Shown here: positions 6,996 to 35,903 of the stretch, piece by piece | Layout of the letters: every line of letters starts with the position of its first letter | Numbering within the stretch: position 1 is the first letter of the stretch | Assembly: GCA_011033025.1 (NCBI GenBank) | Contig: WFMF01000019.1 | Coordinates: forward strand, 310,001 to 374,000 | Length of the DNA stretch: 64,000 bases | Reading direction: 5' to 3' | Source: Beroe forskalii | Lineage: Eukaryota; Ctenophora; Nuda; Beroida; Beroidae | Position numbers and translations under genes: made by a program | The notes under the pieces: generated by a model | What the model was told of the DNA's origin: nothing | Databases searched by the model: none | Seen by the model: only the letters and a program-made list of their open reading frames with translations

Positions 6996-7292
6996 TGTTG
7001 GCATCTTAAATGCTTGCTTGTAGGCAAGCTAAATAATATCGGCAAACACAGAAATAGCGTCAAATTACCCAACCCTATAGTGCTACCGCAGATGCCAACA
7101 ATCAAACCTTATCCTATGATTATCACGTCACAATGAGTAAAGTAAGACTACCTCTGTTGAAGGCGGCGCTCCATTGACCTCTAGTGCAGCCAACAGGTGA
7201 CCAATTATGACGTAAGCAATTATGACGAAGGTCATTATAATTAGGGTCTTGGCAATAGGGAATAGGCAGTTGGCGAGATGACTGGAGGATAG

Positions 7293-7299
7293 TATATAA
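7293..7299 (+). promoter_or_regulatory. LTR TATA box
   Basis: TATATAA in AGTATATAAGAG, repeated at 35531-35537 in the 3' LTR. It sits about 235 nt before the AATAAA, the usual U3-R order. Transcription should start near 7325. It is the obvious promoter for all plus-strand genes of the element. Confidence 0.8.
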
Positions 7300-7528
7300 G
7301 AGCCGCTCTCAACAGAGCAGTCAGATTATTGTTCAGCTGCTAACGCATTCATGCGAACACGTTCTTTACCAAACCTAATCTATCCGTGTTTCATATTTAC
7401 GTTATATACTTGATAGTGCTATTTAGCCTCACTATTATACTGATTATACTGATTGTACTGATAACCAAAATATTAACCAAAGCTTGATTATAACCTCTTG
7501 TTTCACTTGTTCCCTGTTTACTTGAAAC

Positions 7529-7534
7529 AATAAA
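7529..7534 (+). terminator. LTR polyadenylation signal
   Basis: AATAAA in AACAATAAACC; the 3' LTR copy is at 35762-35767 and would end element transcripts. Confidence 0.75.
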
Positions 7535-7677
7535 CCTTTCCCTTGAATCAGACTTTTATAAACCTCCGAAGAAGACCCCGCTACTCTCAAGAGACTTCTC
7601 CCTACCTACTCGAGTGTGACTGGTGAACGATACGTTGGTAACAGTTGCTAAGGACGCAGAGGACTGAAGCCAACAAC

Positions 7678-7691
7678 TGGCGGAAACGCCA
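7678..7691 (+). promoter_or_regulatory. Candidate primer-binding site and GNRA hairpin
   Basis: TGGCGGAAACGCCA starts 10 nt after the LTR. It begins TGG, as expected for pairing with a tRNA CCA end, and also folds into a perfect 5-bp stem capped by a GAAA loop. The matching tRNA was not determined. A splice-donor-like CTAGGTATAC lies at 7738-7747, well placed to be the shared 5' donor. Confidence 0.5.
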
Positions 7692-7906
7692 CTCAGTCCG
7701 ACCACCCCCCACCCCTGGACTGGGAGACCATGTTAGCCTAGGTATACTACAACTATTAAACACTATATATCAGCGAATTCTAGTCACTTTAGACAATCAG
7801 AAAATATCGTCTTCAACATTAAACCCTTAAACAAATGACGGTTATAAACACGATTATATTAGATAATATAATATACTCTGAAACTGTAATTACATATCCT
7901 TTTCAG

Positions 7907-8428
7907 GATCCCCCGACCCCGCAGACTGGTCCCAGAGCACCGACCCCAGACCAGCAAAGACGGACGGCCCCGGCCCCACAGCACCAGCCCCCAGACCGGA
8001 CACAAAGGCCGTACGGCCCCGGCCCCAGAGCACTGGCCCCCAGAGCACCGGCCCCGGCCCCAGAGCACATACCCCAGAGCACCGGCCCCGGCCCCAGAGC
8101 ACTGGCCCCCAGAGCACCGGCCCCGGCACCAGAGCACATACCCCAGAGCACCGGCCCCGGCCCCAGAGCATTGGCCCCCAGAGCACCGGCCCTGGCCCCA
8201 GCACAAAGGCCAAAATGGCCCCGGCCCCAGAGCACATACCCCAGAGCACCGGCCCCGGCCCCAGAGCACATACCCCAGAGCACCGGCCCCAGAGCACTGG
8301 CCCCCAGAGCACCAGCCCCGGCCCCAGCACAAAGGCCAAAATGGCCCCGGCCCCAGAGCACTGGCCCCCAGGGCCTTAGACCCCGCATGCCACAGCCCGT
8401 TAGAAACTATGCCCCCGCAAATCCCTGA
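7907..8428 (+). CDS. Pro/Ala-rich minisatellite exon
   Basis: An acceptor-like CCTTTTCAG ends at 7906, and an open frame then runs to a stop at 8428. From about 7990 it is a tandem array of about 50-54-bp units encoding variants of GPGPRALAPRAPAPAPEHI. The frame is open upstream to an ATG at 7835, but the acceptor suggests translation starts in an upstream exon. The position just after the leader is where gag would be, yet no capsid or zinc-knuckle feature is visible. The product would be a low-complexity, disordered protein. All frames of this array are open on both strands, so coding status rests on the acceptor and position only. Confidence 0.45.
   Translation, partial: DPPTPQTGPRAPTPDQQRRTAPAPQHQPPDRTQRPYGPGPRALAPRAPAPAPEHIPQSTGPGPRALAPRAPAPAPEHIPQSTGPGPRALAPRAPALAPAQRPKWPRPQSTYPRAPAPAPEHIPQSTGPRALAPRAPAPAPAQRPKWPRPQSTGPQGLRPRMPQPVRNYAPANP
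7995..8385. repeat. GC-rich minisatellite
   Basis: Tandem units of about 50 bp carrying CCCCAGAGCACTGGCCCC, some with an inserted CACAAAGGCCAAAATGGCC segment. Strikingly C-rich on the plus strand against the AT-rich surroundings. Confidence 0.85.
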
Positions 8429-8661
8429 TTCTGAGACAATATTAATTTTTTATTAAATTTTTTAACAAAATAAAACTAGATTTCTCAAACTCATCGCATT
8501 TTCATTTATGGATAGATGTTGTATTGCCTGAAGCCTGTTAAAATATTTACAATAAACTTTACCTCTATCTAAAACCATCACATGAATTCTAACTATTACT
8601 TAAGTACTTAGAACCACCACATGACCAATAACTCGAACTAATCACAATCAATATGCTTTAG

Positions 8662-9272
8662 CAATGGCAATCATGATGAGGAAAGCCACGGACGGCACCC
8701 TCTTGCGCTTTATTGCGTCTATCGACGCTGCCCTTCTAGAACGAGAGGGACAGGTAATGACAAACACAATGACACCTGTCGAATTTCCAGTAAGAATCTG
8801 AGTACAGTCACTTAATGTAAATAAACGAATATAACTACTAACGTAATCTATTATTACAGGTCTGCGAGCTGGAGGAAATGGTGGAAAAACTAGCCCGCCA
8901 GTTACACCGAGAGCTCCTCAGGCCAAGCCTGATAAGGATAAAAGGTGAGCACCTCTCAGCCCCGCAGAAGTGGCGCAGGATACGACTCTGGCCCCTTTAT
9001 TGCAAAATTGAGGTCAGACACAGCAATTAAATTATAGTAAACAAATCAGAGATGCCAAATTGAATATGATAAATACAACCCATACTTCGAGAGCGAATAT
9101 TACAAGTAAAACAAACTATACAAAACCATTGATATTCAAAATCAACTCACATGAAAAACCTTTTTCAGGGTATAAAGCTACCCAAGGCCGCCTGCTGCCA
9201 CCCACATACTTCCACTGCCCGCTACGCCACCACTGCTGCCCCCGCCACCACTGCTGCCCCCGCCACCATTAA
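8662..9272 (+). CDS. Small three-exon gene, coiled-coil-like
   Basis: Exons 8662-8753, 8860-8944 and 9169-9272. Acceptors are CTTTAG at 8661, TTACAG at 8859 and TTTTCAG at 9168; donors are CAG|GTAATG at 8754 and AAAG|GTGAGC at 8945. From the ATG at 8664 the joined frame has 93 codons including the stop, with no break at either junction. Exons 1-2 encode an amphipathic, charged stretch (LLEREGQ then VCELEEMVEKLARQLHR) likely to form a coiled coil. Exon 3 runs into the His/Cys-coding edge of the next minisatellite. Function unknown. Splicing is inferred from motifs and phase. Confidence 0.55.
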
Positions 9273-10010
9273 CCAGTAACACCGCCGCCCGGACACCGCC
9301 ACCACCGCCGCCACCCTGGAAACCGCCACCACGGACACCGCCACCACCGCCACCCCGGACAACGCCACCACCACCACCCCGGACACCGCCACCCAGAACG
9401 CCGCCCTGGCCACCGCCGCCCGGACACCGCCACCACCGCCACCACGGACACCGCCACCACCGCCACCCCGGACACCGCCACCCAGAGCGCCGCCCTGGCC
9501 ACCGCCGCCCGGACACCGCCACCAACGCCACCACCACCACCCCGGACACCGCCACCCAGAACGCCGCCCTGGCCACCGCCGCCCGGACACCGCCACCACC
9601 GCCACCACGGACACCGCCACCACCGCCACCCCGGACACCGCCACCCAGAGCGCCGCCCTGGCCACCGCCGCCCGGACACCGCCACCACCGCCACCACGGA
9701 CACCGCCACCACCGCCACCCCGGACACCGCCACCCAGAGCGCCGCCCTGGCCACCGCCGCCCGGACACCGCCACCACCGCCACCCCGGACACCGCCACCC
9801 AGAGCGCCTCCCTGGCCACCGCCACCCCGGACACCGCCACCCCGGACAACGCCACCACCGCCACCCCGGACACCGCCACCCAGAAAGCCGCCCTGGCCAC
9901 CGCCGCCCGGACACCGCCACCACCGCCACCCCGGACACCGCCACCCAGACCGCCACCCCGGACACCGCCACCCGGACACCAAAACCCCGGACACACCGTC
10001 ACCCGGACGC
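9220..10010. repeat. CCACCGCCACCCCGGACA minisatellite
   Basis: About 790 bp of tandem C-rich units built on CCGGACACCGCCACC, grouped in a higher-order period near 110-125 bp marked by CCCAGAGCGCCGCCCTGGCC. All frames are open on the minus strand because the sequence lacks stop words; those Trp/Arg/Gly-rich frames are artefacts. The gap from 10011 to 10330 holds nothing I recognise. Confidence 0.9.
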
Positions 10011-10330
10011 CCCGCCGCCCCGGGACACCGCTGCTAAGACATTAATGCCCCCTGGCACCGCCAGGTCCCGGAACACAACCCCATCCAAGGAAGCCCAGAG
10101 ACTGCATTAATCCCCACCCCCTTTTTTTCTTTTATTATTTTTCTAACACTAGACTTTTATTGTATACGACTACCGAAATTTGAATTAAAATTCTACAAAA
10201 TGATATCTGAGTTAACAACTGCGCTATAACTTCATATAGCGCTGTAATTCCAGCGCTTGAAATTAAATAAAACCTTGCACCTGTACAAAACCTAACAACT
10301 ATCGCCTAATTCACTACCTTGCAAATAGGT

Positions 10331-10944: not shown

Positions 10945-10949
10945 AGTAT

Positions 10950-10984
<35 letters not shown>
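10945..10984. repeat. AT dinucleotide microsatellite, left part
   Basis: A run of AT repeats directly before the Penelope array. A similar run at 17383-17400 follows it, so the array entered an AT microsatellite within the antisense gene's intron. Confidence 0.85.
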
Positions 10985-10987
<3 letters not shown>

Positions 10988-10989
10988 CC

Positions 10990-11643
10990 ATGGGGCCCCA
11001 CCATGCTTGTTCTTATGCTGATGCAGCAGTGGACAAAATCATCGACCAAAAGGTCATGAATGACTCCAACCCCATGAGACACTTCATTGAGTTATGGACC
11101 AGATTCAGAGATGACATCTTCGGTGTTTGGACTGGCTCACATGAGCAGTTGATGGAATTTCATGGCTGGTTGAACTCTTTGAACCCCAAGCTGCGATTCA
11201 CCATCAACACAAGTGAAGATAGCATAGAGTATCTGGATGTTGTTGTCAGTGTAGTTGGGCAGAAACTTTGCACTGCAATGTACAGCAAACCATCAGATAC
11301 CCATGCATATCTCCTTCCTACTTCAAACCACCCTACTCACATCTGCAAGAACATCCCCAACAGTGTGATGAAGCGTGTCACGAGAAATTGCTCAGAGCAA
11401 GAAGTTAGGGATAGCACTTATGAAGAGTACAAGGAGCATCTCCTGAAAAGGGGATACTCTGAGTCTCTGATTGATGATGCTATCACTAATGCCAGAGCAA
11501 CTCCTCGTGATAAGCTGTTAGGTCTAGACAGGGAAGGGGATGAGAAGGCAACTTCTAGGAAGTTCCCTCTGATCATCAAGTTTAATCATAGACTTCCTCA
11601 GATGTCTAAGATGATCAGGAGAACCTCCACATCCTCTCTCTGA
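10990..11643 (+). pseudogene. PLE-1 copy A, C-terminal half of RT
   Basis: Starts abruptly at the RT motif AMGPHHACSYADAAVD and includes the catalytic block RFRDDIFGVW (the two Asp intact), then the thumb-like region. It matches residues about 582 onward of the copy B protein. A one-base deletion in a G run (GATCAGGAG near 11611-11616, where copy B has GATCAGGGAG) shifts the frame and ends it at 11643, just before the linker to the endonuclease. Everything N-terminal is missing, so it is a dead 5'-truncated copy. Confidence 0.85.
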
Positions 11644-11678
11644 CCCCAGAGACCTCGAAACTTTTTAATCCGGATACG

Positions 11679-12242
11679 GTGTTCACTTCCTATAAAATGG
11701 AACAGAACATATTGTCCATGATTACTAAGAACAGGTTGAAGGCCTCTAGTCCTGGGCATGGTGAGGAGAATGTTGGTGGTGGGGTCAAGGATGGGGATTC
11801 AGGCTGTTTTGGTTGTGATCAAGGGTGTACCCTCTGTCAGAATTTCCTGGTTGAATCAAAAACTTTTACTACATCAAAGACCAATCAGACTTTCAAAATC
11901 AAATCACGTATCACTTGTGATACCAAAGGCGTAATTTATTTAATAACAGACAAAATTTGTGAAGATGTATTTTATGTTGGTTACACAGAAGATAACATGA
12001 AAGTGAGGTGGAGAAATCATAAGTCGCATATAAAACAGGGCAAAAAAACATGTGAAATAGCTAGCCATTTTAGTAGATTAGGTAAAACTGCCCATAAATT
12101 AGATAAGAGCACCCAAGCAGTCTACACCTCACAGCTTAGTAGCCACCTTAGTATAGTCCTAATTGAATGTGTGGAGGAGGTCCCAGGAAAAACTAAGAAG
12201 CAGCAGCTAGAAATAAGGGAAAAATTTTGGCAAGGAGCATTG
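11679..12242 (+). pseudogene. PLE-1 copy A, GIY-YIG endonuclease part
   Basis: Frame after the copy A frameshift: a Cys-rich linker (CFGCDQGCTLCQNF), then a GIY-YIG nuclease domain with GVIYLI and VFYVGYTEDN, an Arg in VRWRNHKSHI and a downstream Glu (IECVEEV). In this copy linker and nuclease are in one frame, unlike copy B. The true C-terminus is cut off at 12242 by the retroposon at 12243-13260 and resumes at 13275. Confidence 0.8.
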
Positions 12243-13260
12243 TATTGTATTGTATTGTATTGTAGGTTCCCCAAACTCGGAAGTAAGGGGGACAGTACCC
12301 TTAAGGGCACTGCCAGCACTGGGGCCACGGGACACCACTTATAGCGACGGCAAGTTGCCACTGGTACCCACTGGGTGCTCTGGCTTTATTGGGAACAGCA
12401 TTTCAGTGACATTGGCTTGGTGAACTTCACTGAGCAATGGGGGTCCGGGTGTTAGGCCAGACAAGCCGCCTTTACTGCTGCACACTACAGTTTGAGTCAA
12501 CTATATCTCTGTCCAAAGCACAGAAAAATAGATTTACTCTCTCTGTCCACATTGCCATGGGTCGGTCAAAAAGTCATAAAGGTAAGTGAAGTTTTGATGG
12601 CATGAGCTGGGTTGCCTTCAGTATCAGGTAATTAAAAACAGTGGTACGGGTTTCATGTTAAGTGGTAGATTATCAAAATGTCAGGACCCTCCTGCTCTCC
12701 TTCCATTATTGTCTTGATTAAACTTGATTATCGTCGTCTTTTGTTGTTAGTTACTTTGTATGATTTGGTTGAAAAGGATTATCCCGGGTATTGGGTTAAC
12801 CGGTCCTTTTTCCCTTTCGGGAAGAAGGGCCGGGTGAACTGTCTCTATACACGGTTAACGTTCGAGACAGTTCCTGATCTCTAGGGGTTTATGGATCAGT
12901 TTGCATTTTAAGAGAGAAAGTACACAACGGCTGAAAGCTTTAAGAGACTGGAACCTCACTGGTAGATCTGGAGGATTTTTTAGTTCTCATCCGGCTGAAA
13001 GCACAAAGAACTATTGACTTTAAGAGGAAAGACTAATGGCTGATACAGCGCTAGTCTGTTAGGTTGCACATTGTTCTTATACTCCAAGAGCATAAGTTGG
13101 CAGCCTACTTGTTGCTTCTTGGTCTTAACGCACCATCGCTGTAGTATTAGCAAGCTAATCTACAGACTACGGCCTCGGGAGCAGCAACGAAGCTCCGTTC
13201 CAGGGAATCTCACCGATGTTCTGATTTAACGGTATGGTGCCCGAATCATCAGAACCTGGT
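12243..13260 (-). mobile_element. Retroposon inserted in PLE-1 copy A
   Basis: The 14-bp word GGCAAGGAGCATTG occurs on both sides (12229-12242 and 13261-13274), a clear target-site duplication; copy B supplies the empty site. On the minus strand the insert ends in a TACAA-type pentamer tail, so it was reverse transcribed from a minus-strand RNA. Its 1,018 bp have no convincing coding frame. It is longer than a typical SINE, so a non-autonomous LINE derivative or a retroposed noncoding transcript is likely. Source not identified. Confidence 0.85.
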
Positions 13261-13896
13261 GGCAAGGAGCATTGAAAGCTGCAAAGTTATTTGGAGGCAT
13301 TAATAAACGATAAAAATTTTTAATAGAGCATTTGCTAGGTCGCCACACAGGCCCATCCCATCACTCTGTGTAACCCAACATCCTTTTTAATTTATTGCAG
13401 ATTTTATTTTCATACCATGACAGTACCGATTGATTCATTGATTTATTCTGTACAGTATTTTTCATTTTATAGAATTCCAGAATTTGGTAATTAAATTGAT
13501 ATTGATATTGAAATTTTATATTATTATGAATTGAGACTTATGTTGAATTTTGGTAGAAATATCAATAGAGCTTAGCACAATATAACTATATTTTCAATAA
13601 ATTTGCAATTTATGATTGAATAAATTTACCAACCAATTACTTTTTTATAGGCTATGAAGACAAACTATGTCGAACATGTACCTAACTTGGAAACTATTTA
13701 AAGAAATTTGATGCGTTTCATTGCTTCCACAGTGTCAAGATTAAATTATATATCTACCTGTGGTTAGCACTCAGAAGAACTGTTGGCTGATTTTGGCTTG
13801 ATCTATTCAAACAACACCCGTGATTTCAGAATCGCCTGAGTATCTTTTATTGAGATCCAGTTACTTATTTTATTTTGACAGTTTTTCAGTTTTTAC

Positions 13897-16383
13897 ATGC
13901 AAATTGATTCTCAGAATGAGACAATTTGTACTCAAACTATTCAATTATCAGCTCAGACTCTCAGATTGAATAGACCACTTTCAGTGCTTCTAAAGCACAA
14001 AGATGTTCTTGTCTACAAGAATACTCTTTTTCGTCATAATAGATTCATGAATCAATGGAACTACATGACAACTACTATGAGTAACGGGTGCATCCCAAAA
14101 GGAATTCAGGACCAGGCAAAATTCAGAGTTAGCTTCGAGGAACCATCCATTCAGAATTTGTGCCAGAGTCTATTTCACTATGCAGCATCTAGATCTGCTG
14201 ATGCCATCAAAAGGCATCTCAAATTCCACACTGAGACCCTCCGACAAAGGGTTTACAGCCTGGATAAGGTCCTTAGGAAGAAACTCTCTCAAAACGAGCA
14301 TGTTGCCGTTATGGAAGAGATCAGCAAGCAGGTCAGCAAGGTGAATGAAGACCAGGCAAAAGTTCATGAAAAGAAATTGCAGAGGGATCAAGACATTGGA
14401 AAGAATTATGTTCAATGGCAACCTAGTCACATATTGAAAAGGAAAAACAGGAGAATTCTCCCAAAGAAAAAGAAAACAAGAATCCCTAGTCGAAAGATGG
14501 CTAGAAGGAGTATCAGAAGAACAGAGGAGACAAGAGAAACAATGGATCCTACTTGTCCTCCTCCGGTCATAAACTTGTCATCATCCAAAGTGTTGACAGA
14601 GGGTCATTTTGGTATTTTCAGAAAAGGTCCTAAGTTTGTCCCTACCCCACCGAAGGCGGATTTCTCAGAATTTAGGGAAGACTTTGGGCTTTGGAAGAAC
14701 AAACTACGGTGGGCCTACTGGCATTCAACTAAAATTATTGAAGAACGCATAGAGGAAGAAATGACAATCAAAGACCCAGAATTGGAACGGGCTGAGAAGG
14801 CTCTCATCAGGTCCAATGGTTGTCAGTTCATGGCTCCAGTGAACAAAAACCATGCATTAGAACTTTTTTTGCACAAACTGGAGGTCGGTATCAAAGAAGC
14901 TAAGGAAAGGTCAGGTTCAGGAGACAACCTTACAGCAGCAGAACGGAAAGCTCTGAATGAGATGAAAAGGTGGAAGGATGTTATCATCAGGCCATTTGAC
15001 AAAGGAGTTGGTTTTGTGGTAGATGACTTGAGCAATTATAAAAGCAGGGTCCAATCAGAAATCATGAACCCGGCTACGTACCAAGTTGTCGAAAATCCCT
15101 CCATTGCCATCAGCGAAATCCATGCTCGAATCAGCAATTGGTCTGAGGAATATAAAGAAGACTTGTCACAAGAATTGACAGACTGGATGATTGACAAGAA
15201 TGCGTCATTTGGTTATATCTACATGAATTACAAAGCCCATAAGCCAGAGAAGAACTACCCAGGTCGCTTCATAACATCAGGCTGTGGCTCTCCAACTGAG
15301 AGAATTTCAATGTGGATTGAACACCATATGAGCCCACTCATGAATCTACTCCCTTATAGGTTGAAAGATACCACACAGTTCCTCAAGATCATTAAATCCT
15401 ACAGTGAAGAAAGGGAAGAGAAGGAAAATCCTCCCCCTATTATTCTTGTCAGTTGGGACATCGAAGCCATGTACCCCAACATTGATAATGATGCTGGACT
15501 GCAAGCTTGTCGAGAACTATTTGATGAGCGAACATTCCCCATTCCCTCAACAGATTCCCTGATTGAGGCCATCAGAATCACACTGGAGGAAAACATTGCT
15601 GAATTCGATGGGTTAGTTGTAAAACAAAGAAGTGGTACAGCCATGGGGCCCCACCATGCTTGTTCTTATGCTGATGCAGCAGTGGACAAAATCATCGACC
15701 AAAAGGTCATGAATGACTCCAACCCCATGAGACACTTCATTGAGTTATGGACCAGATTCAGAGATGACATCTTCGGTGTTTGGACTGGCTCACATGAGCA
15801 GTTGATGGAATTTCATGGCTGGTTGAACTCTTTGAACCCCAAGCTGCGATTCACCATCAACACAAGTGAAGATAGCATAGAGTATCTGGATGTTGTTGTC
15901 AGTGTAGTTGGGCAGAAACTTTGCACTGCAATGTACAGCAAACCATCAGATACCCATGCATATCTCCTTCCTACTTCAAACCACCCTACTCACATCTGCA
16001 AGAACATCCCCAACAGTGTGATGAAGCGTGTCACGAGAAATTGCTCAGAGCAAGAAGTTAGGGATAGCACTTATGAAGAGTACAAGGAGCATCTCCTGAA
16101 AAGGGGATACTCTGAGTCTCTGATTGATGATGCTATCACTAATGCCAGAGCAACTCCTCGTGATAAGCTGTTAGGTCTAGACAGGGAAGGGGATGAGAAG
16201 GCAACTTCTAGGAAGTTCCCTCTGATCATCAAGTTTAATCATAGACTTCCTCAGATGTCTAAGATGATCAGGGAGAACCTCCACATCCTCTCTCTGACCC
16301 CAGAGACCTCGAAACTTTTTAATCCGGATACGGTGTTCACTTCCTATAAAATGGAACAGAACATATTGAGATATTGTCCATGA
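13897..16383 (+). CDS. PLE-1 copy B reverse transcriptase
   Basis: An 828-codon open frame of a Penelope-like reverse transcriptase. The N-terminal region has a basic Lys/Arg tract (about residues 188-210) and the PLE-typical block with LTEGHFGIFRKGPKFVPTP (about 234-252). The RT core follows: IRPFDKGVGFVV (about 368), VSWDIEAMYPNID (about 522) with the first catalytic Asp, SGTAMGPHHACSYADAA (about 580), and RFRDDIFGVW (about 616) with the paired Asp. The GIY-YIG nuclease lies in the next frame: an 8-bp duplication (ATATTGAG|ATATTG near 16366-16379) ends this frame at 16383. The RT itself looks complete. Clade uncertain, but clearly different from PLE-2. Confidence 0.9.
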   Translation: MQIDSQNETICTQTIQLSAQTLRLNRPLSVLLKHKDVLVYKNTLFRHNRFMNQWNYMTTTMSNGCIPKGIQDQAKFRVSFEEPSIQNLCQSLFHYAASRSADAIKRHLKFHTETLRQRVYSLDKVLRKKLSQNEHVAVMEEISKQVSKVNEDQAKVHEKKLQRDQDIGKNYVQWQPSHILKRKNRRILPKKKKTRIPSRKMARRSIRRTEETRETMDPTCPPPVINLSSSKVLTEGHFGIFRKGPKFVPTPPKADFSEFREDFGLWKNKLRWAYWHSTKIIEERIEEEMTIKDPELERAEKALIRSNGCQFMAPVNKNHALELFLHKLEVGIKEAKERSGSGDNLTAAERKALNEMKRWKDVIIRPFDKGVGFVVDDLSNYKSRVQSEIMNPATYQVVENPSIAISEIHARISNWSEEYKEDLSQELTDWMIDKNASFGYIYMNYKAHKPEKNYPGRFITSGCGSPTERISMWIEHHMSPLMNLLPYRLKDTTQFLKIIKSYSEEREEKENPPPIILVSWDIEAMYPNIDNDAGLQACRELFDERTFPIPSTDSLIEAIRITLEENIAEFDGLVVKQRSGTAMGPHHACSYADAAVDKIIDQKVMNDSNPMRHFIELWTRFRDDIFGVWTGSHEQLMEFHGWLNSLNPKLRFTINTSEDSIEYLDVVVSVVGQKLCTAMYSKPSDTHAYLLPTSNHPTHICKNIPNSVMKRVTRNCSEQEVRDSTYEEYKEHLLKRGYSESLIDDAITNARATPRDKLLGLDREGDEKATSRKFPLIIKFNHRLPQMSKMIRENLHILSLTPETSKLFNPDTVFTSYKMEQNILRYCP

Positions 16384-16419
16384 TTACTAAGAACAGGTTG
16401 AAGGCCTCTAGTCCTGGGC

Positions 16420-16947
16420 ATGGTGAGGAGAATGTTGGTGGTGGGGTCGAGGATGGGGATTCAGGCTGTTTTGGTTGTGATCAAGGGTGTACCCTCTGTC
16501 AGAATTTCCTGGTTGAATCAAAAACTTTTACTACATCAAAGACCAATCAGACTTTCAAAATCAAATCACGTACCTATCACTTGTGATACCAAAGGCGTAA
16601 TTTATTTAATAACAGACAAAATTTGTGAAGATGTATTTTATGTTGGTTACACAGAAGATAACATGAAAGTGAGGTGGAGAAATCATAAGTCGCATATAAA
16701 ACAGGGCAAAAAAACATGTGAAATAGCTAGCCATTTTAGTAGATTAGGTAAAACTGCCCATAAATTAGATAAGAGCACCCAAGCAGTCTACACCTCACAG
16801 CTTAGTAGCCACCTTAGTATAGTCCTAATTGAATGTGTGGAGGAGGTCCCAGGAAAAACTAAGAAGCAGCAGCTAGAAATAAGGGAAAAATTTTGGCAAG
16901 GAGCATTGAAAGCTGCAAAGTTATTTGGAGGCATTAATAAACGATAA
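16420..16947 (+). pseudogene. PLE-1 copy B, GIY-YIG endonuclease part (frame-broken)
   Basis: The nuclease (GVIYLI, VFYVGYTEDN, VRWRNHKSH) is separated from the RT by two lesions: the 8-bp duplication near 16370 and a 4-bp insertion (CACGTACCTATCAC against CACGTATCAC in copy A) near 16570 that puts linker and nuclease in different frames. The domain itself is intact to its end at 16947. In PLEs this nuclease cuts the target and primes reverse transcription. Confidence 0.85.
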
Positions 16948-17496
16948 AAATTTTTAATAGAGCATTTGCTAGGTCGCCACACAGGCCCATCCCATCACTC
17001 TGTGTAACCCAACATCCTTTTTAATTTATTGCAGATTTTATTTTCATACCATGACAGTACCGATTGATTCATTGATTTATTCTGTACAGTATTTTTCATT
17101 TTATAGAATTCCAGAATTTGGTAATTAAATTGATATTGATATTGAAATTTTATATTATTATGAATTGAGACTTATGTTGAATTTTTGGTAGAAATATCAA
17201 TAGAGCTTAGCACAATATAACTATATTTTCAATAAATTTGCAATTTATGATTGAATAAATTTACCAACCAATTACTTTTTTATAGGCTATGAAGACAAAC
17301 TATGTCGAACATGTACCTAACTTGGAAACTATTTAAAGAAATTTGATGTGTTTCATTGCTTCCACAGTGTCAAGATTAAATTATATATATATATATATAT
17401 AAGGATCAGCTCATATCAAACTATGATATGAGGTATATAATATCATATACTAAATCACAATTCCACAACGAAAATATCAAAAATCATAAAACTCAC

Positions 17497-18184
17497 CTTT
17501 ATCTTTGAGGCGGCTAATCACCTCATCATCAACCCTCTCGAAAGGTAGACACTTTGCCACCCGACGCTTCCTAAAATACTGCATTGCTACCTCCTCACAA
17601 ACACTATATAGATCCTTCCACCTCTTCCCATCACGATATCTAACTATCTCCCCTTTCACCACTACTGGCGTCCAACGTCTATGGAACACCCCACCATCAC
17701 TAGGACCGGAAAACACATCACTACCCAACTGACCACTACCTATCCCCTTCCCAACTACGATAACGTCACGTTTCCTTTTACTACCAGCCCTACAACTGTT
17801 CCTTGCTACAACCTTCTGCTTACCACTACCAACAAAGTCGCTTGCGTCCGCGCCTCCAGCAGACAAATCAGCGACCTCAGGCTGATCAGATGATCTGACA
17901 TCAGCATCTTCGTTACCGTACAGCTCCATTAATTGGTCAAACAGCTTATCACTGCTGACTTCAGCTGACACGGTCGACTCATCAAAAATGTCACCCAGAT
18001 TACACCCACCATGCTCGACAACCAAATCATCGAGCCACTCAGCACTGTCATCCAAACCCGAGCTATCGAAAACTTGGCCTATGTCACAACCCTCATTGAA
18101 AAGCTCGGGACGATAGGCCCTCAAAATAGCGTCGAGTTCTGGATCAAACTCAACAGCAGCATCTTGCCCAGTAAAAGCGTCCAT
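17497..18184 (-). CDS. Antisense gene, exon 1 (acidic, nuclear-type protein)
   Basis: Minus-strand ATG at 18182-18184 (GGAATGGACG). The first about 110 residues are strongly acidic with repeated hydrophobic pairs (FDPELDAIL, DSAEWLDDLVVEHG, SDKLFDQLMELYG), like a transactivation domain. A nuclear-localisation-like GSKRKRDV follows, then a basic domain (RRWTPVVVKG, YRDGKRWKDLYSV, YFRKRRVAKCLPFER). The exon ends at donor AAAG|GTGAGT (17496) and joins exon 2 (10879-10671) in phase for 298 aa in total. The native intron would be about 215 bp; PLE-1 has enlarged it. The frame is open upstream to 18268. A transcriptional regulator is inferred; no known family recognised. Confidence 0.7.
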
Positions 18185-18416
18185 TCCGAGATGAGGAAGA
18201 AACTTTCGAATTGCAAAATATTGAGAAATAATATTATATTCCATGAATATATATATTTTATGTTCCATGAAATGAACGATATATTACTGATGCCACGTGT
18301 TGTGAGCACCAGGTGTTTAGGAACGGAACCGCTATGTAAACATAATCACATACAGTAAACTGTAGCTTTGAATCACTCACCCGTAAAATATTATATAATA
18401 TATCATTTAGCATAGG

Positions 18417-24456: not shown

Positions 24457-25795
24457 GGAGTATGGGGACCTGTGTCCCTCCTCTTGTAAGACACCCATAT
24501 TGTATGGCTTACCTAAGCTACACAAGGATGGAATACCTCTCAGGCCAGTGTTGTCCATGGTAGGCACGTTCAATCATGGATTAGCTAAATTCATGGGAAA
24601 ATTATTGGAACCGCTGAGAACAGCACCTTCAGTGTGTAAGAATTCGTTTTCGTTGGCTAACTATATTAAGGGTAGTGAATTGCATAAAGCTTATTTAGTT
24701 TCTTTTGATGTCCAGAGTTTATTCACGAATATTCCCGTGGACGAGGTGATTGAGATGATATTGAGTAGACTGTTTCCTAGTGACAAAGGGACTAGGAAAA
24801 CTTTCTTATATAATGGTTTTAAACACTTAGATAAATCTACACAAATGAGATATGTGGTTAGATGCTTTACACGTTATGTTGATGATATTTTAGCTGCATT
24901 TGAGAGCTCAGAGAAAGCTCACGAATTTTTAGCATTTCTTAACAGTTTACATGGTAATATAAAATTTACGATTGAAGAAGAAGTTATGGGGCGGATGCCC
25001 TTCTTGGACATATTGCTGATAAGAGAGAACGATCATATGTCAACCACAGTCTATAGGAAAACGACACACTCTGGGGTCTATGCTCATTTCACTAGTTTTG
25101 TTCCATTTGCCCTCAAACTCCAATTGATAAGAACACTACTGCACAGAGCTTACGAGATCTGCAGCAGTTATGAGCTTCTTCATGCGGAATTTGAGAGAAT
25201 AAAGCTAATGATGATGAACAATGGGTACAACAGGGATTACATCTACTCGGTTGTGAACCGCTTCCTTACAAGAAAGGCGTCAGAGAATAGACCTTTTGAA
25301 GGCCCCAAGCCAAAAGAGATCTATATCCGTCTCCCATTCCTTAAGGATAGCACTTACAAACTGGAGAAGTGTATCAATAGTTGTCTCAGCCAGATTAAGT
25401 GTGGCGCTCTCAGAGTCAAAGTATTTTACACTTACTCGAGAGTTTCTGATAGACTGAGGTTCAAGGATAGGTCTTCGATCATCAACAATGCCATTTACTA
25501 TCTTGAGTGCTCGCAATGTGAAGCCAATTATGTTGGTGAAACAACGCGAAACATTCAGGATAGAATGAAGGAACATGCTGACCCAAAGACTGATTCAGTA
25601 GTCGCTAAACATATTTTAGAAAATCCAGGCCACACTTTTAACACAGACAGTCCCAAAATTTTAGCTTTTGAACATAAAACTTTTAAGCGTAGAACCAAGG
25701 AGGCACTGTCTATCCAAAAGATTAACCCTAAGTTAAACATTCAGGAGAAATCATATAAGCTATTCTTATTTGACGTACCCAGGATGGTTAATTAA
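24446..25795 (+). pseudogene. PLE-2 plus copy, RT and GIY-YIG part (internal deletion)
   Basis: Contains PILYGLPKLHKDG, the block AYLVSFDVQSLFTNIPVDE with the first catalytic Asp, then the active-site FTRYVDDILAAF, the nuclease motif AIYYLECSQCEANYVGETTRN and a C-terminus at 25795. Between FLYNGF and KSTQMRYVV the segment that should hold the RT motif with Gly-Ser-Pro is missing, so this RT cannot work. Same family as the inverted copy, different from PLE-1. Confidence 0.9.
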
Positions 25796-26589
25796 TCTTA
25801 ATTTTAATTGTATTTGATATGTTTGCTCTGATTGGTATATTTAGTGTATGTGTATGTATTTTAGTATTCCGAGTGGATCCTGTGATGCTAATTAGTAACC
25901 TGAATGAGAAAGTGAATGCTCAGATTGCTGATTGGTATGACAGTGTTTGGTCGTGAAGCATGGTTAATGACAGTGAGAGCTCTGACTAGAAATCAGAGAA
26001 GTCATTAAACATGTGTCTCGACTTGACAGCTTTAAGTTCATAGTCGGTATATATACGAGGTAATGGAGAAAAGTATTAGCGTGAACATGGTATGTTGATC
26101 ATATTGAAACGTTGCTTTGTAACTTAGTGTCATTATTTCGTTATGAAATTTCTGACATCTTACTTTGTCGTTCTCTTTATTCTCAAGCTACTATTTAGTT
26201 TTAAGATTATTTAATTAGTGAACCTAAAACTTGCAAAAAAGATGCGCTTCAGCACAAACCAGCATACTACCCATATTAGCAGGAGTCCGGTTACACTTGC
26301 CTGTGTTTACATTATGAGATCACCGTGATATGCTGGCATTTCAGTACGATACGGAAACTTGACCGCTAATTAGGGCGTGATCTAATCTGCCCCGCGCCGC
26401 GAGATAGTGCTACATGTTATTATATAGTATCAAACTCTATTTTTAGCCAAAGTTGTTCGAAACCATCAGTGCACCTTTAAGCTGGAGATTGTACTGCTGA
26501 CGAGGAATCAGTCGACGAAGCTGAGCAAAATACTGATAGTGATGAGGATGACGAAGAAGAGGATGGTGACTTTGATGGAAATTAACCCT

Positions 26590-27421
26590 TCAAAGAGACT
26601 GTAAAACTCGATGGTCGAGTATGGTTGCAATGCTAGAAAGATATTTGAAGCTAGAAGACGTTGTTAACACTGTCCTGAAGGATTTCAACCTATCCTCACT
26701 AATGCTCAGTAAGACGGAATCAGAGATGATACAAGATGCTGTGAAATGTCTTGCCCCATTCCAGCTTGCAACCACAGTTCTCTGTAAGCAAGATCAGGAT
26801 CTAGCAGCTGCTGAGAAGATGATTCGATTTGTGGAGCAAGAGCTGAAGGAGATTAACAGTAAAATCGCTCAAGAACTTCTACAATCCTTGCAAACACGCT
26901 ACCATGATCGTAAGAACAACGGTTTGGTGTCAGAGATGAAATTCCTGGAGAACCCCAAATCTCTTAAGGAGACAGATAAAAACTACCAGCTTCCTTCCAA
27001 AGCTTCTCTTACGAGAGCACTGAAGACGACACACTCTCGGTTGTTCCCTACTACAGATCTTGAAGTTGTCGAGGAGTCTACATCTACATCAGAGGAGCCC
27101 ACTAAGAAGAAGCCGAAACAGGACTCACACTCTGAACTGTTCAGCAAGTTCTGCAGCTACATGAAACCTGAAGAGCCTGATATTGAGCAGGACACATTCT
27201 CTAAAGAAGTTCAGCTTTATGTGTCAGGAGGAGAGAAGACTTCCACACTGGTCAACCTCTACAATGCATACAAATCAGTACCTCCCACTTCTGTCGAGGC
27301 TGAACGTGTATTTTCAGTGACTGGATTATTTTTAACAGAACTGAGGAGTCGATTAAACCCTGAAACTCTTGATATTCTGGTATTTTTGAAATATTACTTG
27401 CTGAATAAGAAATCTTCATAG
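26590..27421 (+). pseudogene. hAT transposase, C-terminal part
   Basis: Resumes with RDCKTRWSSMVAMLERY, a conserved hAT block, and ends with the dimerisation domain (LYNAYKSVPPTSVEAERVFS, the Glu being the third catalytic residue, then LRSRLNPETLDILVFLKYYL). The stop is at 27421. The junction with the truncated third 242-bp unit (26482-26581) is out of frame, so no complete transposase can be made from this copy. The reading frame itself has no internal stop. Confidence 0.9.
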
Positions 27422-27870
27422 AATTTCATTGGGATGGTTTGACTTGATTTTGATACTTTAAATACCTTCTTAGTTCTTATACTATGAGTTAACACATGGT
27501 GTATTCGTATTATTTTTGTGTAAATGAGATAATATGATCTTTTGTGTTTCTAGAAACATTTTGGACTTCATAGATAAGACTTTCGATTGATTGATGATTA
27601 CAATGTGATAATTGATTGAAGTGTATAACAGATTAGTAGGTTATTAATATATTGTCAAATTTATTAATGCTTTAATGATAATGATTTGAAAAGACTCGTG
27701 TCTATCATTTGAAATTACTGAATGACTGCTGAAATTATACTTATTTCCCAGCAAATATGCCCAAAAAGAAAATTATATTTTATATCTTATTTTATATCTA
27801 TAAAAAATCAAAAATTATATCTTATATCGATAAAAAATTTTGAGATATAATTGCCAACCCTATTAGGCAA

Positions 27871-28096
27871 CGAATTTTATGATTATCAATGTCTCGAAAT
27901 TAGAGACCCCTATGAAGACAGAGATTTAGCAAAAAATTTTAAACGAAAAAACTTGCATATATTTAAAAATCTCGCCTTAGAATGGCTAAGATATTTCCAA
28001 GATAAAAACAGCTTTTTACTACAGAATATTAAGCGAGATGCCCCTGCCATCATACAAAAAGCGGTAGAAGCATATGACCCACGCCGAGACTATTAA
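27871..28096 (+). CDS. Nucleotidyltransferase, 3' part
   Basis: Continuation after the hAT insertion. The 8-bp target duplication TTAGGCAA (19185-19192) is repeated at 27863-27870. The frame carries CLEIRDPYEDRDLAKNF, the typical C-terminal PAP-associated segment in which a short conserved DP motif contributes to nucleotide recognition in this family, and ends in TAA at 28096. The 226 nt complete the 776-nt 5' part to 1,002 nt, a multiple of three, so the gene was intact when the transposon landed. Confidence 0.8.
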
Positions 28097-28436: not shown

Positions 28437-28829
28437 ATGGAAACAGCGCAATATATGGCACAAAGATTGCTCTACACTGTGTGCAACGTTATGTGTCCAA
28501 TAGACGAAGAAAAGGAGCCACTATATGCACATTTAAAATATATATTGGATGAAATGACAATGTTGGGCTCGCAGCAAATTAAGCTGCCAAAGCTCAAGTA
28601 CGACCTGGACGACATCATCAAAGATATGTGTAAAATTTACAATTCAATTTTCGATGCTTATGAGGACAAAAAATCGCCTCAAGTCATCGAATGCCTTTTC
28701 GTAGCGACACACCACATGATGGCAAGATATAGCAACAGTGCGACTATTTGCAGCAGACTAGCATACTGTTTTGTGGTCATTGTCAAATCAATGGATTCCT
28801 GGACGGAATATGTAACTAAACGTCAATGA
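28437..28829 (+). CDS. 130-aa helical ORF of the LTR element
   Basis: The ATG directly follows an acceptor-like CAATTAG (AG at 28435-28436). The product is predicted all-helical with a Cys-containing hydrophobic C-terminal half (CSRLAYCFVVIVKSMDSWTEYV) but no clear signal peptide. Small helical viral proteins of this size include Bcl-2-like regulators, and the ending loosely recalls that shape, but I see no definite BH motif and do not assign it. A structure prediction compared with Bcl-2 folds would decide. Confidence 0.55.
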   Translation: METAQYMAQRLLYTVCNVMCPIDEEKEPLYAHLKYILDEMTMLGSQQIKLPKLKYDLDDIIKDMCKIYNSIFDAYEDKKSPQVIECLFVATHHMMARYSNSATICSRLAYCFVVIVKSMDSWTEYVTKRQ

Positions 28830-29925: not shown

Positions 29926-30357
29926 ATGGAATACGACCTGCTAAATATAGATGTTGATGCCTTATGCCCCAATATTGCATGTCAATATGCAGGCTGTCAC
30001 GATATTAAAAAAGACCTACCACTTGTAAACTCACTATACATTAGTGGAAGACAAGAATTTCAAATGGATCTGTGTGAAATACACACAAATATAATGAAAA
30101 CTCTCTGGGAAAAATTGATCAGCAACTTAAATTGCCTGTGGGAGTTTACAGGATTCACCCCACTCTCAAGATGGAATGAAGAAACAGGCCTCGAACTACA
30201 AACCAGAAGACACTCAAGAATTGTTAAAGTTGTGCTGAATCAAATATACACAGATTTTACTCAAATAGTCCAATCTTATGAAAGAAATGAGCGACCAGAG
30301 CTGCTAGACATGTGCAGATTAGTAATAAAGCAAAACACTGAGAAATGCTACAATTAA
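29926..30357 (+). CDS. 143-aa Cys/His-containing ORF
   Basis: The ATG follows an acceptor (ATTCAG at 29916 or ATAG at 29920) by 5-9 nt. The N-terminal third has evenly spaced Cys/His (C14, C19, C24, H25, then LCEIHT near 50) that could bind one zinc; the rest is helical with a basic stretch (QTRRHSRIVKVVLNQ). No family recognised. The frame is intact and ends in TAA, followed by an AT-rich spacer. Confidence 0.5.
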   Translation: MEYDLLNIDVDALCPNIACQYAGCHDIKKDLPLVNSLYISGRQEFQMDLCEIHTNIMKTLWEKLISNLNCLWEFTGFTPLSRWNEETGLELQTRRHSRIVKVVLNQIYTDFTQIVQSYERNERPELLDMCRLVIKQNTEKCYN

Positions 30358-30610: not shown

Positions 30611-30907
30611 ATGGATTATGGGTATCTTGCAAGAACGACAAGAGACATTAAAAGTTTGGAACTGCTAGGGAAAGCAGAAGAACATTCAGATAAAGAAGAT
30701 GAAATAATTACATTATACAAAGAACATAAGCTATTGAATGAACTATTGAAAATCGAACCAAATAACAGAGAATTAGAATTATACATGCATCGACAATATT
30801 GGAAAATGATTGGATTAATGAGGGCATGGCGAATTGATACGACTATAGCTGAAATAGAAAATCTGTCGATTATCTGGGAGACAAATTTAATGAATCAAAA
30901 TAATTGA
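30611..30907 (+). CDS. 98-aa helical ORF
   Basis: ATG 2 nt after acceptor TCGTTTTAG, the same GAATGG start context as the homeodomain gene. The protein is charged and helical with repeated Leu/Ile spacing (EIITLYKEHKLLNELLK), suggesting a coiled coil. No Cys, signal peptide or transmembrane segment. Function unknown. Its start arrangement, shared with its neighbours, is the main argument that it is a real gene. Confidence 0.45.
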   Translation: MDYGYLARTTRDIKSLELLGKAEEHSDKEDEIITLYKEHKLLNELLKIEPNNRELELYMHRQYWKMIGLMRAWRIDTTIAEIENLSIIWETNLMNQNN

Positions 30908-32752: not shown

Positions 32753-33865
32753 ATGACAACGATGATACCGATAATTTTGATGATATTCATGCCATTGGTG
32801 CGAAACGAACTCGCACCAATAGTATTCAAAGACCAAGGAGTAGTCCTTAATCCTCAAGGCTACATAGCAATAGCGCCAGAGCGAATAAGAATAAGTCTCA
32901 TGATGAAAATAACAAAACCATCACTGTTATCCCTGGACAGCCACTGCCTAAACATATGCACTGACAGCCAAATACAACAATTTGTCACGGACAGAGATGA
33001 CCCATGCATAAATTGGGGTTATAAACCTAGTGCAGACCCTTATAAAATAATAGAGGATGGTGAATTTTTACATAATATAAGATCTTGCCTCATCGCCTGC
33101 AAAACGGAAAGCTGCTCATGGATCCAGATCACAATGGAAGGATGCAAATTATATCGAGAAACAGACTTCAGTAAAGGGGATTCTGTCATGATATTGGCTC
33201 CATGCATCTACAGACGAATATCGAAAGAATGCGAACTGGAAGCAGAAAAAACAAATATCATCACTTCAGCCCTAACGCAAGACATGGATGAATTCTGGAC
33301 GGGAATGATGACACAAGTCACAGAGCTTGAAAACACCCAAGTAAGGAAAAAACGCCAAGTTGCAATGATTGTCGGAGCAGCAGGTGTACTCTCATCTCTT
33401 GTGGCATCAGGATTCAATTACTTTAATAACAAGAGATTGGAAGAAAAAATAAGTCACATGGAAAATGAATTCCAAGAGTTTGCACAAAACATCTATCAAT
33501 TCGAAGAAAACACATATGACTTCGAAAAGGAAATAGTCAAAGTAGTAGACTCAGTTAGGCAAGCACAAGCACAAAACGCAAAATACATGATGTGTGAAAT
33601 AGACCAAATTGCCCTAGCACTTCTCCAATACAGAGAAATGACAAGATTCAAAGACAGAGTAAATGAAATTTTAAAGCCATTAAACGAAGGCAAAAGGACA
33701 TCAATGTTCACACCTAAATTACTAAACATATCCATAATACAGGATATTATCAACAATCATCCGAAATTGGAAAAACACTCTACAAAGAACACCCAGAACT
33801 TGTTTACGCGACAAGTAAGGCAACAATCGCAGAAGTCGCAGAAAATAAAGAAGCAAGCACAGTAG
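32753..33865 (+). pseudogene. Env/F-like class I fusion protein, N-terminal part
   Basis: ATG 1-9 nt after clustered acceptors (CAGCAG...TTAG). There is a signal-like hydrophobic N-terminus (about 4-16), a Cys-rich surface domain (about 65-160) and a basic RKKR furin-type site at about 198-201, followed at once by a 20-residue Ala/Gly/Val-rich fusion-peptide candidate (203-222) and a long heptad-rich helix. This order is that of class I fusion proteins; the baculovirus F/errantivirus Env group is the nearest I can suggest. The frame is lost near 33770-33800 (an A run is the likely spot) and stops at 33865, while the rest continues in another frame. Broken in this copy. Confidence 0.75.
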
Positions 33866-34005
33866 CAATACACCTGATATTAACAATCCCAACGCTCCAA
33901 GAAAAGCATGTTTACCAGTATTTTAAAACAGCACAAACAGGATTTTATTATGATAAGAAATGCTGGAAACACGACGTACCAAACACAGTTTTCCAGAAAC
34001 AATCC

Positions 34006-34878
34006 TTGGACCTAAAAACTGGTATACAATCTAGGGCATTTTACTCCCTAGATGCAGTCCATTGCGAAGGAGAATCAAACTTATTTATGTTCTGCGACAT
34101 AAATATAAACCAGGCCATGACAAATCCATTAAGATTAATGGAAGCTGAATGCTTATTTGAAACACCTAATACATGTAACATGTCACCAATAACATGCAAG
34201 GATAAAATACTCTACAATGTTCATGGCCTCCTAGCAATGTCACATAATGAAATAAAAGGAGTTTTGAAAGAAATAACTGAAGAAAAGAAAATTGTGACAT
34301 GGAACCCGAACGACACATCAACAAGAACCTCTTATTGGCCATGGAAAACTTACGATTATGTTGAATTCAACTCAGGCATAGCAAGAGCAGTGGATTATGA
34401 AGGCGAAATTATGGGAGCTAGCGAGGAACAACAAAAAATATGGTGGAAAACAATCAAGAAAACAAATGAAATAATGGAAGCAAGAAATCTTTCTAAAGCA
34501 TACAGTTCTCTTAAAAAATCGCTCAAAGGAATTGAGAACCAACGTCAATGGTTCAGTAACAATTACTCGACTATGACAAAAGACATAACATTAACGATTT
34601 CAATAGTCCTTATTGTCATATTGATAATTGTAACAACACTATGCTATGGCCGCCAAAAATTTGAGAAGAAACAAAGGAAAGGCACTAAACGAAAAATAAA
34701 AGAAGACAAATATTCAGATACGGACGATGAAACAGGCCCAGAAGAAATGGCTATGGAGGAACAAGCCCCGATAGCAACATCAGGAAGAACTGGACAAGCA
34801 GTACACTCTGGACCGCAACACGAACATATCCCACTGATGAAACAACCAGCAGAGTCCCCTTCAAGAAAAGACGAGTAG
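34006..34878 (+). pseudogene. Env/F-like protein, membrane-anchored C-terminal part
   Basis: Same gene after the frameshift; the frame is open from about 33790, so the ATG at 34006 is only the first Met in it. It contains Cys-rich segments, a helical stretch, one transmembrane segment (about residues 193-215 from that Met, TISIVLIVILIIVTTLCYG) and a basic then acidic cytoplasmic tail. After the stop at 34878 another frame stays open with acidic codons to about 34968, suggesting a second small indel in the tail. Length and order fit one envelope gene of roughly 700 codons, now inactive. Confidence 0.75.
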
Positions 34879-35220
34879 AATCAGCCCCACCGCAAGAAGA
34901 CGATGACGAGACGAATGAGGAATACAAACCAGAATATACACCTTACTTCAAATCGATGGTATTATAAAAAAGAGACAATGACAATTATCAATTATAGACT
35001 GAGAATCAGCATGGTATTATAAAACGAATGATGATAAAATTATTGAATTCAGAAAACAGTAGCGATATTAATATATCAAATTATCTAATCAATGCATGAG
35101 ATGATCAAACTAATACATATATTTTTTTTGAAATTAAATTAATTACGAAATTAAGCAAATAATTGATTATCATAAATTAATTACGAAACTAAGCAAATAA
35201 TTGATTATCTGTAAAAAACA

Positions 35221-35230
35221 GAGGAGGGGG
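35221..35230 (+). promoter_or_regulatory. Polypurine tract
   Basis: GAGGAGGGGG, preceded by further purines, ends 4 nt before the 3' LTR. This is the expected place for plus-strand priming. It is the only such purine run near the LTR. Confidence 0.75.
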
Positions 35231-35234
35231 ATGA

Positions 35235-35900
35235 TGTTGGCATCTTAAATGCTTGCTTGTAGGCAAGCTAAATAATATCGGCAAACACAGAAATAGCGTC
35301 AAATTACCCAACCCTATAGTGCTACCGCAGATGCCAACAATCAAACCTTATCCTATGACTATCACGTCACAATGAGTAAAGTAAGACTACCTCTGTTGAA
35401 GGCGGCGCTCCATTGACCTCTAGTACAGCCAACAGGTGACCAATTATGACGTAAGCAATTATGACGAAGGTCATTATAATTAGGGTCTTGGCAATAGGGA
35501 ATAGGCAGTTGCGAGAGGACTGGAGGATAGTATATAAGAGCCGCTCTCAGCAGAGCAGTCAGATTATTGTTCAGCTGCTAACGCATTCATGCGAACACGT
35601 TCTTTACCAAACCTAATCTATCCGTGTTTCATATTTACGTTATACTTGATAGTGCTATTTAGCCTCACTATACTGATTATACTGATTGTACTGATAACCA
35701 AAATATTAACCAAAGCTTGATTATAACCTCTTGTTTCACTTGTTCCCTGTTTACTTGAAACAATAAACCTTTCCCTTGAATCAGACTTTTATAAACCTCC
35801 GAAGAAGACCCCGCTACTCTCAAGAGACTTCTCCCTACCTACTCGAGTGTGACTGGTGAACGATACGTTGGTAACAGTTGCTAAGGACGCAGAGGACTGA
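35235..35900 (+). repeat. 3' LTR
   Basis: 666 bp, starting TGTTGGCATC and ending GGACTGA before AGTAACC. Relative to the 5' LTR it has four substitutions and has lost 1, 2 and 3 nt (near TTGCGAGAGGAC, GTTATACTTG and CACTATACTG). TATA at 35531-35537 and AATAAA at 35762-35767 are kept. Confidence 0.95.
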
Positions 35901-35903
35901 AGT

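Follow-up and report, generated by a model that had tools for sequence, protein, structure and literature searches.

A probable deletion copy of an env-bearing Ty3-type long terminal repeat element with a large accessory gene set in the ctenophore Beroe forskalii

A 64,000-nucleotide stretch of the ctenophore Beroe forskalii genome (contig WFMF01000019.1, here C236, positions 310001-374000; hereafter the window) holds a long terminal repeat (LTR) element with genes for a terminal uridylyltransferase (TUTase)-like enzyme, a homeodomain protein and two membrane glycoproteins, GP1 and GP2. An earlier note, made from the letters of this DNA, had seen no gag-pol in it and had proposed a virus-like family mobilised in trans. 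We find that the window element is very probably a dead copy, marked by a deletion, of an undescribed LTR element of the Ty3 (Metaviridae) type that bears env and resembles complex retroviruses. Gag and pol, missing here, stand between the same LTR and the same accessory genes in another copy in the same genome.

Within the window, no gag or pol sequence was found between the LTRs by tblastn with the gag and pol of that other copy as queries, nor were gag-pol domains recognised by Pfam in the nine element open reading frames (ORFs) scanned, as the earlier note had said. A search of the host genome (216 Mb in 1134 contigs) with the TUTase protein located the other copy, on contig C208, through a 98% match about 10.7 kb from an LTR copy. 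Its minus strand reads, in order, an LTR (89% identical to that of the window), gag (434 amino acids), pol (1155 amino acids), a small, seemingly intron-bearing gene, Pro-rich repeats with a leader gene, an antisense acidic ORF, an unsplit TUTase gene (335 amino acids), ORF130, the homeodomain ORF, ORF143, ORF97, GP1 and the start of GP2. A relative with the same LTRs and a gag-pol interior is what the earlier note had named as telling against its trans-mobilised family, and C208 is such a relative. The window tracks C208 through the LTR and 7 further bases and then skips about 6.1 kb, with TGGCG at both edges. The skip takes out gag, pol, the likely leader splice donor (CAG/GTATTT) and the primer-binding site except for 5 bases, a loss that makes self-copying of the deleted form unlikely. 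A third, rearranged copy on C725 retains a gag remnant (66%), the F tail of GP2, the purine tract and an LTR. Because C208 joins the same LTR to gag-pol, the window shows the deletion junction and C725 keeps a gag remnant, we conclude that gag-pol is native to the family and that the copy in the window lost it through a deletion with 5-bp microhomology.

The pol of C208 places the family. Pfam finds, in order, an aspartic protease (PR; 2.2e-9), the reverse transcriptase (RT) domain RVT_1 (1e-21), RNase H (RH; 1.6e-31) and the integrase (IN) H2C2 domain (4.1e-17), which is the PR-RT-RNase H-IN order of Metaviridae/Ty3-Gypsy, read in C208 because the pol of the window is deleted. The best PDB match is Ty3 (5.9e-72, 246 bits), followed by Enzymatic polyprotein (8r0s) at 115 bits and the best other Gag-Pol at 94 bits, so that the Ty3 assignment is one of score ranking against PDB sequences plus Pfam domain order. 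In the gag protein a weak CCHC match (E 0.037) lies below the cut-off. The termini agree with the TG...CA ends and 4-6 bp target duplications of the same group: an exact 4-bp duplication flanks two of five single LTRs (TATT, GTTA), three of four bases are alike at two more, and the fifth has an altered 3' end. A 3-bp duplication, AGT, considered for the window element was dropped, as other copies point to 4 bp.

The two LTRs of the window show 4 substitutions among 663 aligned bases, with 8 gap columns besides (0.6% divergence), in line with the 99 percent identity noted earlier, and the TATA, AATAAA and polypurine motifs are in place (Table 1). Of the 672-bp LTR described before, the pair stands and the length does not, the repeat being 680 bp when read to GCCAACA. 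The terminal CCAACA is absent from the 3' LTR and present in the 5' LTR and in five other copies (L030, L031, L032, L037 and L038); the 3' LTR looks shortened by a small deletion. A DNA search of the genome with the LTR listed 21 matches, nine of them longer than 570 bp, including two in the window. Near-full-length LTRs on C242, C290, C674, C769 and C370 and partial ones on C348 and C260 have no match to the window interior within the 10 kb examined. The gag search gave nine host matches, four of which, at 47-49% on C222, C902 (two) and C252, suggest a sister lineage. At L027 (2641-3280, minus strand) there is a seeming two-exon gene of which only the end remains in the window copy; its second exon resembles a double-stranded-RNA-binding motif, namely the C-terminal half of one, and its exon pieces have no Pfam match. 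Adding about 17.0 kb from the LTR to the start of GP2 in C208 to the 3.0 kb of window DNA that runs through the 3' LTR gives an estimated family size of about 20 kb.

The accessory genes named in the earlier note, namely the TUTase-like enzyme, the homeodomain protein, the antisense acidic protein and the two glycoproteins, were all recovered by Pfam, PDB matches or open frames. The best PDB match of the unsplit C208 TUTase is Terminal uridylyltransferase 7 (5.5e-24), to which it aligns, and the C208 protein has GSS at 59, DID at 71 and VDI at 127; a GS motif, DxD and a third Asp are the signature of TUTase/Cid1-type nucleotidyltransferases. Eighteen matches were listed when the host genome was searched with the TUTase protein. 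TUTase-like pieces are clustered at L035 and L036 (C651:24000-44000), mostly at 62-75% and with about 33% identity to the element TUTase, and this cluster may be a host gene family or the source.

GP1 matches PF24664 with 34.3 bits in the window and 35.8 bits (3e-9) in C208, against a cut-off of 27, and four of five aligned GP1 members match the profile at E <= 1; its AlphaFold model has a predicted local distance difference test (pLDDT) score of 34.5. The GP2 gene of the window is disrupted by a frameshift, and its two pieces were analysed separately. The host genome holds 14 further F-type places, of which six were scanned by Pfam and eight were aligned with the two window pieces; left out of the alignment were L044, L045, L047 and L056 (short or split), L049 (a near-duplicate of L050) and L054 (long). 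Searched against PDB, the resulting profile of 10 sequences gave 25 matches at E <= 0.01, all named fusion protein (best 5.6e-10). With this family profile, GP2 shows the profile similarity, furin site, fusion peptide and transmembrane (TM) anchor of a paramyxovirus-type class I fusion protein. The C-terminal piece alone gave two PDB matches, the better at E 0.21, and among the six F-type relatives scanned PF00523 was above the cut-off in two, below it in two and absent in two. Many distinct F-type env ORFs are present in the host genome (L043 and L045-L055), with a further open frame behind those at L048, L051, L053 and L055, which suggests that env-bearing retroelements have radiated in the host.

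The accessory ORFs are open in the window and C208 alike, except for the window TUTase, which is split by a hAT element. Nei-Gojobori ratios of nonsynonymous to synonymous divergence (dN/dS) between window and C208 ORFs, given in Table 1 and for GP1 amounting to 0.091 at dS 0.82, show purifying selection on most accessory genes. Up to the hAT site the TUTase has dS 0.073 and dN/dS 0.067, its 258 codons holding 11 synonymous changes and 3 others. The antisense acidic ORF is open in three copies, namely the window, C208 (306 amino acids) and a truncated copy on C746 (287 amino acids). In the leader gene, the differences from C208 by codon position are 4/0/10 over the 30 codons of exon 1, where 28 of 30 residues are the same, and 0/2/3 over the 28 codons of exon 2, which is less informative and is open in a second frame as well; the intron donor and acceptor are identical in the two copies. 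The homeodomain protein of C208 matches the Oct-1 homeodomain (4.7e-5). ORF130 is predicted to be all-helical in a low-confidence model and could possibly have a Bcl-2 fold; a BFVD structure search returned 75 entries, none at E <= 0.001. A PHROGs search of five element proteins gave no matches. GP1, the homeodomain ORF and ORF130 each have two matches in the host genome, the window and C208. The earlier note had said that finding these genes elsewhere without LTRs would mean chance capture: in the host genome no such places were found for these three, and TUTase-like and F-like genes are present at other places.

The layout of these genes is suggestive of splicing. In both copies a YAG lies within 16 bases of the ATG in all seven ORFs examined (TUTase, ORF130, homeodomain, ORF143, ORF97, GP1 and GP2), compared with 58 of 172 other ATGs in window positions 27861-34900. 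When a pyrimidine-rich stretch is also demanded, the counts are 4/7 in the window and 5/7 in C208 versus 17/172 control ATGs. The likely leader donor of C208 stands between the primer-binding site and gag. Together, acceptors and donor point, at the DNA level, to a complex-retrovirus layout with one genomic RNA and many spliced messages. The antisense open frame comes within 134 bases of the TUTase ATG in the opposite direction, and this position and direction suggest an internal promoter for the antisense gene.

Relatives also exist outside this genome. Among 5.8 billion proteins searched, at least three relatives of GP1 (87, 71 and 50%), two of the homeodomain protein (59 and 56%) and, at E <= 1e-100, at least four of pol (92, 82, 52 and 50%) were found; scoring in the GP1 and pol searches was limited to the 7994 and 7987 candidates with most words in common, which makes these counts lower bounds. 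The 71% GP1 relative (P0002) and the 82% pol relative (P0007) are listed with a longest contig of equal length, 22,693 bases, as are GP1 P0001 and homeodomain P0004, at 15,035 bases. Since these values are equal, each pair probably lies on one contig.

How else might the window be explained? If the family lacked gag-pol throughout and were mobilised in trans, as first proposed, one would understand a gag-pol-less copy whose LTRs are only 0.6% diverged and the rarity of interior-bearing copies, five near-full-length and two partial LTR loci having no window-interior match within 10 kb. Yet gag sequence accompanies the same LTR on both C208 and C725, and the deleted form was found in one copy only; with 5 primer-binding-site bases and no likely leader donor, it would be expected to make a poor template. 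We therefore regard this explanation as very unlikely. Hardly any likelier is a chimera, in which an ordinary Ty3 LTR element would once have captured a functionless block of viral or host genes. The mosaic divergence between copies and the kin that the TUTase and F-type genes have outside the family would suit it, whereas the gene order common to two diverged copies, the low dN/dS at dS near 1, the public relatives at 50-87% and the acceptors before 7/7 ORFs in both copies speak against it. Least credible of all is that the LTRs flank what is left of a large DNA virus or a negative-strand RNA virus. GP1 and GP2 do resemble glycoproteins of negative-strand RNA viruses, and Bcl-2-like, homeodomain and TUTase genes would suit a large virus; against this, none of the ORFs scanned was recognised as a nucleoprotein or polymerase of an RNA virus or as a replication gene of a DNA virus, and in C208 a Ty3-type gag-pol lies between the LTR and the accessory genes.

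A deletion copy of a complex retrovirus-like Ty3-type element thus remains our preferred reading, and several observations weigh against it. No one complete copy was read, C208 ending shortly past the start of GP2, and the C208 pol frame stops early (1155 amino acids versus 1293-1305 in three relatives). The two copies are mosaic, with a TUTase dS of 0.073 compared with 0.62-1.48 elsewhere, as would be expected of recombining retroelements, and so do not descend in a simple way from a single recent parent. Splicing of the accessory ORFs is deduced from DNA only, and one third of control ATGs likewise lie near an AG. The assignment of GP1 is sensitive to filtering, PF24664 being found with the 519-residue C208 protein and missed with the 529-residue stop-to-stop version (E <= 0.1), and the GP1 profile had no match among PDB sequences at E <= 1. 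For the C-terminal piece of the window GP2 alone, PF00523 reaches E 0.0038, below the cut-off. Constraint on the antisense ORF is weaker (dN/dS 0.33). Finally, linkage of the public proteins is deduced from equal longest-contig values, not from contig sequences.

Table 1. Features of the LTR element in the window and of the insertions nested in it
Feature	Position	Strand	Evidence or remarks
5' LTR, TGTTGGC...GCCAACA	6996..7675	+	TATA box TATATAAG at 7293; AATAAA at 7529; 680 bp
AC spacer and 5 bases TGGCG left of primer-binding site; deletion junction	7676..7682	+	C208 reads on as TGGCGCGAACTGTC; window joins C208 ~6.1 kb later, also TGGCG
G+C-rich, Pro-rich tandem repeats on both sides of leader gene	7900..10045	+	found in C208 too
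Leader-proximal small gene, two exons	8664..8943 (8664-8753, 8860-8943)	+	GT-AG intron borders conserved
Penelope-like insertion, not part of LTR element	~10967..17371	+	RT and GIY-YIG-like C-terminus, partly duplicated
Antisense ORF, acidic N-terminus and basic C-terminus, 268 aa stop to stop	17480..18283	-	dN/dS 0.327, dS 0.97
TUTase-like nucleotidyltransferase gene, split by hAT	18417..28096 (coding 18417-19192, 27863-28096)	+	Pfam MTPAP-like 2.5e-18
hAT element, not part of LTR element	19193..27862	+	terminal inverted repeat TAGGGTTGGCAA, 8-bp target site duplication TTAGGCAA
ORF130	28437..28829	+	dS 1.03, dN/dS 0.048
Homeodomain protein, 192 aa	29093..29671	+	Pfam 2e-6; dS 1.48, dN/dS 0.158
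ORF143, without family match	29926..30357	+	dS 1.15, dN/dS 0.076
ORF97, without family match	30611..30907	+	dS 0.62, dN/dS 0.062
GP1, Monjiviricetes-like glycoprotein, 519 aa	30980..32539	+	PF24664
GP2 N-terminal part, paramyxovirus-F-type class I fusion protein	32753..33865	+	signal-like stretch, RKKR cleavage site, fusion-peptide-like stretch
GP2 C-terminal part, different frame	33718..34878	+	TM stretch and tail
Polypurine tract AGAGGAGGGGGATGA and adjoining bases, 5' of 3' LTR	35213..35234	+	C725 LTR preceded by same tract
3' LTR, without last CCAACA	35235..35902	+	LTR comparison

Two insertions interrupt the window copy (Table 1). The Penelope-like one, with its GIY-YIG-like end, is missing at the corresponding place in C208; in the Pfam scan at E <= 0.1 its parts gave no RT match. 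The hAT element that breaks the TUTase gene itself contains a second Penelope-like piece at about 22473-26189. Subtracting the Penelope-like insertion and the hAT element leaves about 13.8 kb, the figure obtained before. No Rfam match at gathering score and no tRNA was found in the window. Next to the hAT site, window positions 18347-19192 are 97% identical to L028 in TUTase DNA while the downstream genes are about 80% identical, which looks like recombination or gene conversion between copies.

Tandem repeat arrays flank the element at 3458-5748 and 35901-36950, and the empty target site sequence is contained in the right-hand units. Outside it, near-perfect inverted repeats of about 1.6 kb each lie 12-15 kb apart (37074-38715 and 51121-52756). 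To its left, a fragment at 935-1261 is 34% identical to C208 gag (45% over a shorter piece), and another gag-bearing element may have decayed there.

In the scheme we propose for an intact element, the LTR would drive a single long RNA whose unspliced form would serve as genome and gag-pol messenger, and splicing from the leader donor to the acceptor before each ORF would, as in complex retroviruses, yield the mRNAs for the accessory proteins and the glycoproteins. Integrase would produce the 4-bp duplications. GP2, being F-type, would act as the fusion protein and GP1 as a second glycoprotein for attachment or alternative fusion, while the homeodomain and acidic antisense proteins would be transcription regulators. 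The TUTase would uridylate RNA, and our tentative guess, rather less likely right than wrong, is that this would serve to disarm host small RNAs or mRNAs or to mark the RNA of the element itself. A further-reaching proposal, for which we see even chances, is that of a new complex-retrovirus lineage outside Retroviridae: a Ty3-type element of about 20 kb with a DNA-virus-like gene set, comprising two glycoproteins from different negative-strand RNA virus groups, a TUTase, a homeodomain regulator, an acidic antisense regulator placed divergently, leader genes with introns and perhaps a Bcl-2-like protein, with alternative splicing from one LTR as the means by which most of these are expressed. 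If this holds, a Ty3-type lineage reached complex-retrovirus organisation independently, with an RNA-tailing enzyme and with glycoproteins captured from two groups of RNA viruses; retroelement genomes can expand to large-virus complexity; and the family allows a direct test of how intron-bearing RNA is exported in such genomes and of the role of a virus-like TUTase. Even with gag-pol restored to the family, the result remains worth noting: a Ty3-type element of about 20 kb that bears env and has an uncommonly large accessory set, most of it under selection.

Most complex retroviruses known, with their regulatory genes and multiple splicing, come from vertebrates. The Cer1 element of Caenorhabditis elegans is Ty3-type and has far fewer accessory genes than the element described here, and Terminons have a Penelope-type RT and a hammerhead motif and lack LTRs. 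Chuviruses, whose glycoprotein is of interest in relation to GP1, belong to Monjiviricetes. The window element was not assigned to the Terminons, as its Penelope-like parts are nested insertions missing at the C208 counterpart and Rfam found nothing in the window. Nor was the family placed in Belpaoviridae, the group of Anakin, its pol having Ty3 as best PDB match and no Pao-type Pfam match at E <= 0.1, or in Retroviridae including Lokiretroviruses, since the only RNase H stretch that Pfam finds in the C208 pol at E <= 0.1, at 601-713, precedes the integrase, and a second RNase H with a tether domain was not recognised. The earlier note's view of a virus-like element with a large accessory gene set stands; our literature search found no comparable LTR element, be it one that carries a TUTase, one that carries a homeodomain gene or one that carries two glycoproteins of viral type, a result that covers titles and abstract openings, with most subscription papers and all preprints outside it, and is no proof of absence.

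Known systems nonetheless share parts of this organisation, as far as the portions of the sources consulted describe them. Troyka elements have CG...CG termini, 3-bp duplications and no env (PMC12440569), unlike the termini and duplications seen here. Lokiretroviruses, whose Env resembles Mononegavirales fusion glycoproteins, differ in their vertebrate hosts and in a dual RNase H with tether (PMC9040795). Anakin elements are BEL/Pao elements of mosquitoes that bear a glycoprotein of chuvirus origin (Dezordi et al. 2020, PMC7642597); they are alike in that an LTR element took up such a glycoprotein and differ in their BEL/Pao pol, and the word 'accessory' is absent from that text. Terminons resemble our element as very large retroelements with many extra ORFs (PMC5408684). 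In Cer1 a spliced mRNA encodes a nuclear-export regulator while the genomic RNA is left unspliced (PMC10309623), so that Cer1 is likewise an LTR element with a regulator made from spliced mRNA. The TelKA LTR retrotransposons of bdelloid rotifers carry a paramyxovirus-F-type env, and their ORF3s typically come from spliced messages (Rodriguez et al. 2017, PMC5408684). For TelKA the sections consulted describe neither a second glycoprotein nor a gene for a TUTase, a homeodomain protein or an antisense product, and the dUTPase domain of TelKA pol is unmatched in C208 pol at E <= 0.1 (PMC5408684). What the two share is gag-pol with PR-RT-RH-IN, TG...CA LTRs and an F-type env with furin site, fusion peptide and TM anchor (PMC5408684).

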